Of a DNA stretch of 64,000 bases, positions 13,009 to 19,209 are shown piece by piece. The translations under genes were made by a program, and so were the position numbers. The notes beneath the pieces were generated by a model. It was given only the letters and a program-made list of their open reading frames with translations. It was not told where the DNA came from and did not search any database. Each line of letters begins with the position of its first letter. Position 1 is the first letter of the stretch. Origin of the DNA: Salinigranum rubrum (GTDB lineage Archaea > Halobacteriota > Halobacteria > Halobacteriales > Haloferacaceae); contig NZ_CP026309.1 in NCBI RefSeq assembly GCF_002906575.1, positions 248,001-312,000 of the forward strand, in the 5' to 3' direction.

Positions 13009-14415
13009 TCAGGCGTAGGGGTTCGCGCCGTTCTCGAACCGTTCTCGGTAGTCTTGCTCCACCTGGTCGAACAGGTCCGCGTTGTCGTACTCGCTCGGCA
13101 CCGAGTAGTTCGACGGCTTGTTCTCCTCCGTCCACAGGAGTTGGCTGAAGTCCTCCCGCCGGATCGGGCTCAGCAGGTTCTGTGGGTCCCACTCGTCGCC
13201 GCTCTCTTCGACCGACATCGCCTGCCAGTCGTAGGGGGACTCGCCCTCCGAGAAGGCGACGTCGAGGTACCGCTGCGGACTCGTGAACGAGACGTCCATG
13301 TCGCCGAACGTGTCCCGCGACAGCGAGTCGTTGATGATCATCGCGCCGCCGCCGAACATCATGCGCTCGGGCACCTCGGGCCGCCACCCGTGGAGCCAGT
13401 CGTACCCCTTGACCACGGCCCACCCGCCCTGCCAGAAGGGTTGCGCGGCGAACGTGCCCGCGAGCCAGGGCTGTCCGGAGTCTGCCGAGCGGTCGCGGAC
13501 CAGGCCGACCGACTCCTGGAAGCCGTCGTAGCCGACCACCGGCACGGCCATGTCGTTCTCTTCGAGGACGGAGAGCGCGCCCAGCGCGACGCCGTCGTTC
13601 TGGCCGTAGACGCCGTCGATGTCGTCGCCGAACTTCGAGAGGAAGTCCGACATCGCCTGGCGGCCGGTCGCGCGCGTCCACTCGCTCGGAATCGGTTCGC
13701 CGAGTCGCTCGATGTCGGGGTACTCCTCCATCGCGAGTTCGACGCCAGCGTTGCGGTGTGAGCCGACGTGGCCCGGAACGCCGGTGATGTGGACGAAGTT
13801 CCCCGACCCACCCATCGCCTCGAAGAGGACGCGAGCCGTCGCGGCACCGGTTCTCACGACCTCGGGGATCTGGTACTGGAGGAACTCCGGGCCGGTGTCC
13901 AGCGGTGTCCACCACGTGGCCATCGTCCAGTAGCTGATGAACGGGACGCCGCCCTCCGCGGCCACGTCGGCGATGGAGCGGACGCCCGAGTTCTGGTAGG
14001 CGGTGCCGGTGATCATGTCCGCCCCGCCGGTGATCGCCGCCTGAAGCTGCGACATCTGCTGTGACTCCTGCCCGCCGTGTGTCTGGTAGTCCACGCTGAG
14101 GTCGAGGGCGCTCGCCGCCTCCCGAGCGCCGGCGAGGAACGCCTGCCAGATGTCGTTCTCGATGTTGTCCGGCGAGACGAACGCCTTGTCGATGGTTCCG
14201 TCGTACTGCCACTCGGAGGCGGATTCGCCACCACTACCCTCGGTGCTGGTACTCCCACCGCCGCCCCCACCACTCCCACTCGTGCCGCCTTCGGTCCCGC
14301 CGCCGCCACCACCGGTTCCGGAACAGCCCGCGAGCCCCGCGATGGCTCCGACGCCGAGCCCCTTGAGATACTTCCGTCTATCCAGCGTCACGCGTGGATT
14401 GTCATCATCGAGCAT
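13009..14415 (-). CDS. CUT2 sugar-binding Tat lipoprotein
   Basis: Periplasmic-binding-protein-like lipoprotein (Peripla_BP_4 type), 468 residues with the start used. The N-terminus carries a Tat motif DRRKYLKGLGVGAIAGLAGC with a lipobox cysteine, then a Gly/Ser-rich linker, the usual arrangement for exported haloarchaeal binding proteins anchored to the outer membrane face. I chose the ATG at 14415 because a TATA-like box at 14443-14450 (minus strand) overlaps the alternative ATG at 14445 and sits about 30 bases before 14415. First gene of the CUT2 operon. Confidence 0.9.
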   Translation of the reverse strand: MLDDDNPRVTLDRRKYLKGLGVGAIAGLAGCSGTGGGGGGTEGGTSGSGGGGGGSTSTEGSGGESASEWQYDGTIDKAFVSPDNIENDIWQAFLAGAREAASALDLSVDYQTHGGQESQQMSQLQAAITGGADMITGTAYQNSGVRSIADVAAEGGVPFISYWTMATWWTPLDTGPEFLQYQIPEVVRTGAATARVLFEAMGGSGNFVHITGVPGHVGSHRNAGVELAMEEYPDIERLGEPIPSEWTRATGRQAMSDFLSKFGDDIDGVYGQNDGVALGALSVLEENDMAVPVVGYDGFQESVGLVRDRSADSGQPWLAGTFAAQPFWQGGWAVVKGYDWLHGWRPEVPERMMFGGGAMIINDSLSRDTFGDMDVSFTSPQRYLDVAFSEGESPYDWQAMSVEESGDEWDPQNLLSPIRREDFSQLLWTEENKPSNYSVPSEYDNADLFDQVEQDYRERFENGANPYA

Positions 14416-14604
14416 ACCATTATCCAGGTATTTCCTAATCGACATAAAACTTGTGACCGCGCGAGTGACAACGACCCCCCGCCGGTTTCGCCCGACGGGG
14501 ACGAATCCGGGCGGCCCGCTACGGGTCGAGCGAGGGGGCCCGCTCGATTATATATGGCCTCGCGTGGGTCGAGGGCCCAGCGACGGGAGGGGTCCCTTCC
14601 GCCT

Positions 14605-14691
14605 CGTCGAACAGTGCAGCACTCCGTACTGCTGGCTCGACGCGACTACGCCTCGTCGAACAGCGCGAGACGTAACCTCGCTGGCTCGACG
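14605..14691 (-). repeat. Two tandem 38-base hairpins downstream of xacD
   Basis: Two units, 14605-14642 and 14654-14691, start with the same ten bases CGTCGAACAG and end with the same twelve bases GCTGGCTCGACG. The outer arms CGTCGA/TCGACG pair perfectly. The inner sequences differ but each pairs with itself (CAGCA/TGCTG in the first; CAGCG-CGAG with CTCGCTG in the second). The second unit starts eight bases beyond the xacD stop in transcription direction. This looks like a duplicated RNA 3'-end structure, possibly a terminator or mRNA stabiliser. Confidence 0.6.
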
Positions 14692-14698
14692 AGTCGTT

Positions 14699-15931
14699 TC
14701 ACTCCTCGTCGAACATCGTCTGGCCCTCGGCGAGGTGCTCCTCGACGGCGTCGAAGTCCAGTGTCAGGCCGAGGCCGGGCTTCTCGGGGATCTGCATGTA
14801 GCCGTCCTGGATGAGGCCGTCCTCCTCGACGAGGTCCTCCCACCAGCCGAGTTCGTACGAGTGGTACTCGACGGCCAGCGAGTTCGGGATGGCCGCACCG
14901 ACCTGCGCCGAAGCCATGGTGGCGATGGGCGAGGAGACGTTGTGCATCGCCACCGGGACGTAGAACATCTCGGCGAGCGTGGCGATCTTCATCGTCTCGC
15001 GCATCCCGCCCACCTTGGGCACGTCGGGTGCGATGATGTCGACCGCCTGTTCGGTGAGGAGTTGCCGCTGGCCGTGGGTCCGGTAGACGTTCTCGCCGAC
15101 CGCGATGGGCGTCCCGGTCGACTGAGTGACCTCCCGCTGGACGTCGTGGTTCTCCGGCGGGACGGGGTCTTCGAGCCACCAGACGTCGTACGCTTCGAGT
15201 TCGCGTGCGAGGCGTTTCGCGCTCCCGGCGGTGAACGACCAGTGGCAGTCGAACGCGGCGTCGGCGCGGTCGCCGACGCGCTCTGTCACCTTTCGAACGA
15301 TCTCGGCCTTGTGTTCGATCTCGGGGGCCCGCAGGTGGCGGTTCGCGCGGTCCTTCTCGTGGCCCGAGGGGACGTCGAGGTCGAACTTCAGCGCGTCGTA
15401 TCCCAACTCGTCCACGACGCGTTCGGCCTCGTCGGCGCAGGCGTCGGGGTCGGCCTCGTCCTCCGTGTGGCAGTCACAGTAGACGCGCACCTCGTCGCGG
15501 TACTTCCCGCCGAGGAGTTGGTAGGCAGGGACGTCGAGGACCTTCCCCGCGGCGTCGTGCAGCGCCAGTTCGATGCCCGAGATGGCCGCGATGTCCTTCC
15601 CGGCGATCGAGCCCTCGCCGGACGTCTTCTGCACCATGTGTTCGTACAGCCGGTCGATGTCGAGGGGGTTCTCGCCGACGATGAAGGGTCTGAGCCGGTC
15701 GATGATCTCCGGGATGGCCCCGCCCCAGTACGCCTCGCCGTTGCCGACCACGCCGGCGTCCGTGTACACCCTGACCAGCGTCCACGGGTAGTTCCCGTCG
15801 ACGATGACCGTCTGGACGTCGGTGATCTCCACGTCGCGGTCGCCCCGGTCCCCGGTGAGTCCCATCGTCTCCGCCGAGAGGTCCCGCATCGTGTACTCCG
15901 CGTTCGGGTCTCGTAACTGTCCGTAGTTCAT
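14699..15931 (-). CDS. xacD: Pentonate dehydratase, mandelate racemase/enolase superfamily (XacD-like)
   Basis: 410-residue member of the MR/MLE family that dehydrates D-xylonate and L-arabinonate to the 2-keto-3-deoxy acid. Superfamily residues are visible: a lysine in DALKFDLDV, metal ligands in FDCHW, WLEDPVPPEN and AVGENVY, and the catalytic histidine in VAMHNVSSP. A TATA box (15956-15965, minus strand) lies 25-34 bases before the ATG, giving a leaderless start. In Haloferax volcanii xacD, xacF and xacR are neighbours, and the same order is seen here. Family is certain; the substrate is inferred from the surrounding full xac set. Confidence 0.85.
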   Translation of the reverse strand: MNYGQLRDPNAEYTMRDLSAETMGLTGDRGDRDVEITDVQTVIVDGNYPWTLVRVYTDAGVVGNGEAYWGGAIPEIIDRLRPFIVGENPLDIDRLYEHMVQKTSGEGSIAGKDIAAISGIELALHDAAGKVLDVPAYQLLGGKYRDEVRVYCDCHTEDEADPDACADEAERVVDELGYDALKFDLDVPSGHEKDRANRHLRAPEIEHKAEIVRKVTERVGDRADAAFDCHWSFTAGSAKRLARELEAYDVWWLEDPVPPENHDVQREVTQSTGTPIAVGENVYRTHGQRQLLTEQAVDIIAPDVPKVGGMRETMKIATLAEMFYVPVAMHNVSSPIATMASAQVGAAIPNSLAVEYHSYELGWWEDLVEEDGLIQDGYMQIPEKPGLGLTLDFDAVEEHLAEGQTMFDEE

Positions 15932-18309: not shown

Positions 18310-19074
18310 TCAGGAGTACGTGACGTTGAGTTCGATGACGTTGACGGCTTCGAGCACCTTGTTCGGGAGTTCCTCGCGGAATCGTGTCCCCCTGATGCGG
18401 TTCGAGGGTCCCGAGACGCTCACCGCGCCCAGCACCCGGTCGTCGTTGCTCAGAATCGGCGCTGCGACACACCGGAGCCCCTTGATTCGTTCCTCGTCGT
18501 CGAGCGCGTACCGGGAGTCGCGGACGTCCTCGAGCGCCTCGTACAGTTCCTCGCGCGAACTCACCGTCTTGGGCGTCGTCTGTTCGAGCCCGTGGCGGTC
18601 GATGATCTCGTCGACCCGCTCGCGTGGCATGAACGCCAGGATGGCCTTGCCGAGCGCCGTGCTGTGCAGCGAGACGCGCGTTCCGACGTGCGCCTCCACC
18701 TGCACCGCGTTCTCGCCACGGACCCGCTGGAGATACGTCCCGCGGCCGTGTTCTTCGATCAGGAGGTTGGCGAGTTCGCCCGTCTCCGCCGCGAGGCGGT
18801 CGATCTCCGGTTTGGCGATCTCGAAGATCTGGCGGCGATTTCGTGCGTACGCTCCGAGTTCGAGGAACCGAATGCCGACCTGATAGACGCCGTCCTCCTT
18901 GACGATGTACTCCTCCTGTTCGAGCGTGCTGAGGTAGTTGTGCACCGTGCTCTTCGGCGTGTCCAGGTGCGCCGCCAGTTCCGACACCCCCGCGCCGTCG
19001 AGTTCACGGAGGGCTTCGACGATTGCGAACGTGTTCACGATCGACTGGACCGGGTTCTTCGCCTGGTGGCTCAT
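18310..19074 (-). CDS. xacR: IclR-family regulator of pentose catabolism (XacR-like)
   Basis: 254-residue transcription regulator. The N-terminal winged helix-turn-helix (about 10-70: QSIVNTFAIVEALRELDGAG, then VSELAAHLDTPKSTVHNYLS) is followed by an IclR effector domain (about 85-250) that binds a small ligand. The ATG at 19074 lies about 28 bases after a TATA box at 19098-19106 (minus strand). Haloferax XacR is an IclR protein that activates the xac genes, and it is encoded between the same neighbours. The gene is divergent from xacE, whose promoter shares the gap. Confidence 0.9.
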   Translation of the reverse strand: MSHQAKNPVQSIVNTFAIVEALRELDGAGVSELAAHLDTPKSTVHNYLSTLEQEEYIVKEDGVYQVGIRFLELGAYARNRRQIFEIAKPEIDRLAAETGELANLLIEEHGRGTYLQRVRGENAVQVEAHVGTRVSLHSTALGKAILAFMPRERVDEIIDRHGLEQTTPKTVSSREELYEALEDVRDSRYALDDEERIKGLRCVAAPILSNDDRVLGAVSVSGPSNRIRGTRFREELPNKVLEAVNVIELNVTYS

Positions 19075-19097
19075 GCGCGCACGTTTGAGGTCATCTA

Positions 19098-19209
19098 TGA
19101 TAAACGTTGATTCCACGTTGTGGGACACCCCACGAGCACAGCGTGGTTCTCCACGGTCGTGACAGTGTCCGCGACCGCCCCTCGCCCCGGTGTGCACGAG
19201 GATTTATAA
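19098..19209. promoter_or_regulatory. Divergent promoter region xacR / xacE
   Basis: A minus-strand TATA box (gtttatca, 19098-19106) serves xacR and a plus-strand TTTATAA at 19203-19209 lies 27-33 bases before the xacE ATG at 19236. Between them, inverted AACGT/ACGTT arms seven bases apart, overlapping the xacR TATA box, form a possible operator for autoregulation. Confidence 0.55.

Follow-up and report, generated by a model that had tools for sequence, protein, structure and literature searches.

Tandem hairpins at the 3' end of a xacD-type gene of Salinigranum rubrum, probable members of a family of modular palindromic DNA repeats in haloarchaea

The two hairpins behind the xacD-type gene of Salinigranum rubrum are probably two modules from a family of palindromic DNA repeats found in haloarchaea, in which the linkers are near-constant and the stems variable. 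We observed recurrence of the arrays, a common layout, a patchy distribution and, in xacD and a TruA-like gene, insertion into sites that are empty in relatives. We infer that whole modules moved, or were copied, as DNA, any effect of the RNA on xacD being secondary.

Hairpins and linkers at the end of xacD

In the window, i.e. the whole stretch of 64,000 nucleotides that was analysed, the host gene is an open reading frame on the minus strand (14699..15931), which we take to be a xacD-type sugar-acid dehydratase of the enolase superfamily by recognition of its sequence rather than by family search; galactonate dehydratase models match it with scores below their curated cut-offs. As the first-pass annotation had described, two 38-nt units with different, self-pairing middles lie at 14605-14642 and 14654-14691 of the plus strand, and share their first ten (CGTCGAACAG) and last twelve bases (GCTGGCTCGACG). 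They fold best on the xacD strand. The third, partial copy which it had placed at the end of the coding sequence was found as well (TCGTCGAACA at 14705-14714, the 3' end of xacD), and repeat finding gave a three-copy family at 14600, 14649 and 14702 plus a 12-nt family. The unit turned out to be larger than described before, as 14712-14705, at the gene end, and 14693-14686 form a stem that encloses the stop codon. The first arm copy is the coding end of xacD itself and the gene's own last codons belong to the array; the proposed tie of the element to this 3' end holds.

On the minus strand, xacD ends with ATG-TTC-GAC-GAG-GAG-TGA (stop at 14701-14699) and is followed by AACGA-CTCGTCGA-GCCA-[GCGAGG TTACG TCTCGC]-GCTG-TTCGACGAGGC-GTA and, directly after this GTA, by GTCGCGTCGA-GCCA-[GCAGTAC GGA GTGCTGC]-ACTG-TTCGACGAGGC. 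Read in this direction, with all features on the minus strand, the array begins within the coding end with linker X0, GACGATG (14714..14720; GACGYTG in many array-bearing relatives), and with arm R0, TTCGACGAG (14705..14713), which consists of the last xacD codons (F-D-E) and forms an 8-bp stem with its partner, arm L1, CTCGTCGA (14686..14693); the stop codon (14699..14701) lies in the loop of this R0:L1 hairpin. There follow a linker Y, GCCA (14682..14685), core hairpin 1, GCGAGG-TTACG-TCTCGC (14665..14681), a linker X, GCTG (14661..14664), and a second, imperfect R:L hairpin (14637..14660) made up of R1 (TTCGACGAGGC, 14660-14650) and L2 (14646-14637). Another linker Y, GCCA (14633..14636), core hairpin 2, GCAGTAC-GGA-GTGCTGC (14616..14632), and a linker X, ACTG (14612..14615), lead to R2 (TTCGACGAGGC, 14601..14611), the last copy of the gene end, which has no partner.

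The palindromes lie about 50-160 nt upstream of a TATA-like box (ATATATAAT at 14555-14547, spotted by eye only) in front of an ABC operon, and family search found an IclR-family gene nearby at 18310-19197. That they are binding sites for a regulator of this operon, e.g. the IclR-type regulator encoded there, is nevertheless highly improbable: arrays stand behind two xacD-type genes of the same genome with different neighbours, the core halves are not conserved, and the R0 half is xacD coding sequence. A scan of 14400-14800 gave no match to a bacterial-type promoter or terminator, and 0 intrinsic terminators, i.e. a G+C hairpin followed by a T run, were found in the same interval. Searches for Rfam families returned one match for the window region at E <= 1, which is below the gathering score and outside the element, and one match for five array loci, an sR-tMet RNA away from the arrays.

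Recurrence behind xacD-type genes, folding and covariation

A protein search of named haloarchaeal genomes gave 79 xacD-type loci; since 26 of the 105 loci in total came from genome searches with array DNA as query, figures are given on the 79. Many of these carry a like arrangement directly 3' of the stop codon. Using a covariance model made from 57 units, two of them the window units, an array was detected at the stop codon in 31 of the 79 loci (E <= 1e-4), and the proposed search of other haloarchaea for the arms with variable cores succeeded. There was no strict match at 48 of the 79, among them six Haloferax loci and seven relatives with 87-91% identity, whereby the strict label "absent" takes in decayed arrays. 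A palindrome of at least 8 Watson-Crick pairs was present at the stop codon in 22 of the 79 loci (34 of the 105 overall) compared to 1 of 232 control gene stops; the sequence at the single control stop equals the xacD hairpin of its locus and may represent an overlapping frame. Of the three strong matches of the model in the S. rubrum genome, two lie in the window and the third follows a second xacD-type gene, which is 78% identical and has neighbours different from those of the window gene. The E-values of the window units in the whole genome (1e-14 and 7e-9) are partly by construction, as both are in the model, while the unit of the paralogue, which is outside the model, reached 7e-7 and the next genome match 0.008. 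Three identical tandem copies were seen at one locus (L087). The codon before TTC-GAC is YTG at 25 of 30 array loci versus 21 of 48 others (p 8e-4, uncorrected), an association that was not significant in phylogenetic pairs; the comparison of threonine with glutamate before that codon gave p 0.10.

When folded as RNA on the minus (xacD) strand, the two units reached -21.6 and -26.5 kcal/mol, corresponding to z of -2.5 and -3.6 against dinucleotide shuffles, of which 3/200 and 1/200 were as good. The plus strand folded less well (z -0.6 and -2.3), and z for the whole region was -2.4. The folding suggested in the first-pass annotation agrees with its expectation, each unit folding better than nearly all shuffles. 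For the analysis of covariation, 57 units of length 36 from xacD-type loci were aligned without gaps; the regular expression used for their choice fixed this length and the end motifs, which makes the conservation of the ends a matter of construction and leaves the core free. In the 7-bp core stem, 93.2% of cells were paired and two-sided changes occurred at 6 of 7 pairs, and over the whole structure 87.7% of cells pair compared to 27-42% in slid controls. G.U exceeded A.C by 35 to 18 (p 0.027 by a statistic that ignores relatedness; the count covers junctions of two lengths and at least 5/8 pairs, with 3 weak core units kept), a weak hint of a constraint on the RNA strand.

The folding on the gene strand, the two-sided core changes and the G.U excess would all fit an RNA element under selection in the 3' UTR of xacD, whose hairpins shield the 3' end, retard RNA polymerase or determine where the transcript stops ahead of the ABC operon, and whose cores vary by compensatory evolution. 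A Haloferax study (PMC7237163) describes hairpins upstream of some 3' ends, one of which was tested and terminated 59%. We consider such an element unlikely at xacD. The 48 loci lacking a strict match, the six Haloferax loci and the seven close relatives among them, count against it, as do the lack of a T-tract terminator in 14400-14800, the fast turnover on the xacD tree and the occurrence of a like layout within coding sequence. The earlier claim that compensating cores indicate selection for RNA structure stands only in part: the structure is real and recurrent and the cores are variable yet self-pairing, but the covariation is no proof of RNA selection, because an arm-loop-arm core is one contiguous palindrome and exchange of this block alters both arms together.

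Turnover, insertion and a proposed mechanism

On the xacD protein tree (79 rows), array presence changes 23 times. In a tree with the window gene and under the strict label, there were 24 changes versus a shuffled mean of 25.2, i.e. no tree signal. With remnants counted as arrays, a relaxed label that was partly set by eye, the changes dropped to 20 versus 26.9 (0/200 shuffles) and a tree signal was present. The window gene is the sole bearer of a strict array in a clade of nine (support 99), the other eight having none.

An insertion can be read from two Natronorubrum loci. The xacD gene of N. thiooxidans (L069) ends with CTG-TTCGACGAAGCG-TAA, and that of N. sulfidifaciens (L070) with CTG, TTTGACTGAGCGAAGCGAAGTCAA-GCCA-GCAAATCTTCGATTTGC-GCTG, and then TTCGACGAAGCG-TAG. 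Relative to the former, the latter has 49-50 nt inserted after the leucine codon and ahead of the former gene end, with homology on both flanks, and the insertion supplies a new gene end, L-F-D-stop; the two loci also differ by other changes. CTGTTYGAC is found at both ends of the insertion, and the hairpin arm itself contains TTYGAC. A module of 49-50 nt thus entered before the old xacD end and gave the gene a new one, and by the same comparison R2 of the window (14601..14611) would be the displaced old end of xacD. Since gain and loss of arrays are rapid on the xacD tree, an insertion is seen in N. sulfidifaciens and the layout also occurs inside coding sequence, RNA selection is not the best explanation for the two hairpins and a DNA element is preferred.

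The arrays have the layout X - hairpin - Y - hairpin - X, with X close to GACGYYG and Y close to GCCA or GCTAA; the linkers stay short and near-constant while the stems are free to vary, their halves changing as complementary blocks. A module comprising two hairpins and two linkers would be added at an X-like site (GACGYYG, GACG). At xacD, the GACGYTG codons of the host may serve as the site and its palindromic TTCGAC end as a hairpin, one hairpin per module being built on the host 3' end, i.e. on the last codons, the stop codon lying in the loop. Each further module would enter just ahead of these codons, supply the gene end and stop and displace the old end downstream, so that copies of the gene end pile up as arrays; the last residues and the stop would change with each addition and the protein would have to tolerate this. 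Cores would differ because a contiguous arm-loop-arm block can be exchanged whole. Candidate agents are a single-strand (HUH-type) transposase acting on hairpins, ectopic gene conversion between arrays and hairpin-driven template switching. Guide pairing is a feature of IS608; none between X and Y was seen by eye. No donor, enzyme, excision product or strain polymorphism came to light, which counts against the DNA-element reading, as do the G.U over A.C ratio, the tree signal obtained when remnants are counted and the loose match of the xacD linkers to those elsewhere. Recurrence at one gene position across many genera speaks against a random inserter and would need a hotspot, ancient inheritance followed by loss, or a function; the RNA at xacD may have gained a role later.

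The nearest known kinds are REP/BIME mosaics, Rickettsia palindromic elements and haloarchaeal PATEs, from which the arrays differ by variable stems, steadier linkers and capture of host gene ends; no description of such arrays was found in the literature searched. BIME/REP mosaics and pneumococcal BOX elements are tandem alternating hairpins joined by alternating linkers, with conserved hairpin sequence. The alternation of hairpins and linkers is alike, but here the linkers are steadier and the stems vary. Rickettsia palindromic elements are short palindromic repeats inserted in frame within protein genes (PMC10969869). They resemble our case in having in-frame insertion in a protein gene with intact empty-site relatives, here the TruA-like gene, and differ in forming families of about 150 bp, each with a conserved peptide, whereas the haloarchaeal modules measure about 50 nt, have stems that differ from copy to copy, and form tandem arrays, also at gene 3' ends. 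The conserved primary sequence and peptide of such a family are not seen here, the stems differing between copies. Haloquadratum PATEs are described as palindromic, transposase-free short elements of down to 52 bp with IS605-like near-terminal palindromes and no target duplication (PMC3119063). Like the xacD arrays they are haloarchaeal, palindromic, transposase-free and short. A difference may lie in target duplication, as CTGTTYGAC stands at both ends of the insertion here, with TTYGAC also part of the hairpin arm itself. A CRISPR array was rejected, the variable parts being palindromic and recurring at other loci rather than unrelated, non-palindromic spacers.

The same layout at other genes and in dispersed arrays

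Gene names in this section, namely icd, TruA, S9-type peptidase, Nudix, PurH, tnpB and histidine kinase, are presumed from recognition of the sequences rather than from family search. Behind an isocitrate dehydrogenase-like (icd-like) gene (G217, L241:4900-5045), an array with three copies of the gene end (AACATTCACGAACTSGCGTAA and close variants of it) has the stop in a hairpin loop, and cores CCGAGCTCTGCTCGG and AAATCTTCGATTT, both of which also occur at xacD, alternate with the gene ends. Within a histidine kinase gene (G030, L204:13496-13626), six perfect hairpins stand in frame, copies of VEHGST with palindromic codons alternating with different perfect hairpins that encode short peptides. 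Of 243 genomes, 8 contained this kinase pattern, in most cases around a different perfect core, and 0 matched the backwards control; two such kinases belong to S. rubrum (L263, L268). The TruA-like gene of G032 (L372:3609) carries an in-frame hairpin insertion of 57 nt and encodes 285 aa, compared to open frames of 266-267 aa in five congeners (L374-L378), in two of which the empty site was read as DNA. Further chains of G032 lie in frame in an S9-type peptidase and a Nudix-type gene, and some inserted peptide text recurs, e.g. ANQKS. Two-hairpin insertions were also noted in frame in a PurH-like gene (G030, L192:2385; GRLHLPGSQTQSGDVGE) and near the start of a tnpB-like transposon gene, where the stretch before ASKLWN is split (G021, L287:1450-1560).

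More tentatively, the arrays may be a selfish DNA element of haloarchaea for which hairpin shape and short linkers, instead of stem sequence, are the recognition signal; its stems would change as whole blocks, and it would capture a host palindrome (a gene end, kinase N-box codons) as one of its own hairpins and spread from there. If the reading as a modular DNA element is right, apparent covariation, which is usually taken as proof of functional RNA, can arise from exchange of palindromic DNA blocks, and short hairpin modules edit the ends and loops of haloarchaeal proteins. The layout also provides a clear grammar with which to search for elements whose differing stems hide them from ordinary repeat finders.

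Arrays of like layout are also dispersed in intergenic DNA. Core AAATCTYYGATTT was found in 48 of 60 genomes of the family with up to 34 copies (1 in all for the backwards control), often within a pair or chain of hairpins joined by fixed linkers. The recurrence of AAATCTYYGATTT and of core CGAGCTCTGCTCG across many genera, both at unrelated genes and at dispersed sites, bears on another origin, a mutational by-product in which replication template switching at a palindromic gene end makes and perfects hairpins and tandem copies with no mobile element. This origin would explain why the R0:L1 stems correspond to the end of the gene that bears them (GATGAAGC/GCTTCATC, GATCCGGC/GCCGGATC, GATGAATC/GATTCATC), the three identical copies at L087 and the swapping of palindromic cores as contiguous blocks; local switching alone is insufficient for the recurring cores, and we regard it as distinctly unlikely. 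Returning to the modular DNA element, 400 kb of G032 contained 29 chains of 2-7 perfect hairpins, an inflated density as the stretches were picked around core matches. Of 41 linkers, 27 were Y, 12 X and 2 other, with alternation in 11 of 12 neighbours; these classes were defined after inspection of the data, and 6.5% of random 7-mers contain a Y-type linker. The xacD linkers match loosely (GCCA 20/57, GTTG 12/57). Common cores, small loops, alternation and this partial linker match suggest a link between the xacD arrays and the dispersed ones, less strongly than the evidence at xacD itself.

Hairpins were sampled in 2.06 Mb of four genomes plus the window, where a direct repeat flanked 28 of 1257 hairpins versus 7 at random places; the array behind the icd-like gene came from this sample. 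In the sampled genomes, loop-3 stems of at least 8 numbered 79 versus 57 expected, and since this general excess is small, the arrays are no background effect. A dispersed array of G032 matched six haloarchaeal plasmid records, each over less than most of the query. No match for the xacD array was found among phage records, and in viral contigs one core pattern led to three stretches. In G032 and G005 (L313-L348), many hairpin pairs lie inside a larger dispersed repeat containing GGGGGGAGGGGTGGGG, and in Halosimplex aquaticum (L100:5016-5176) five intergenic triloop hairpins stand without X and Y linkers.
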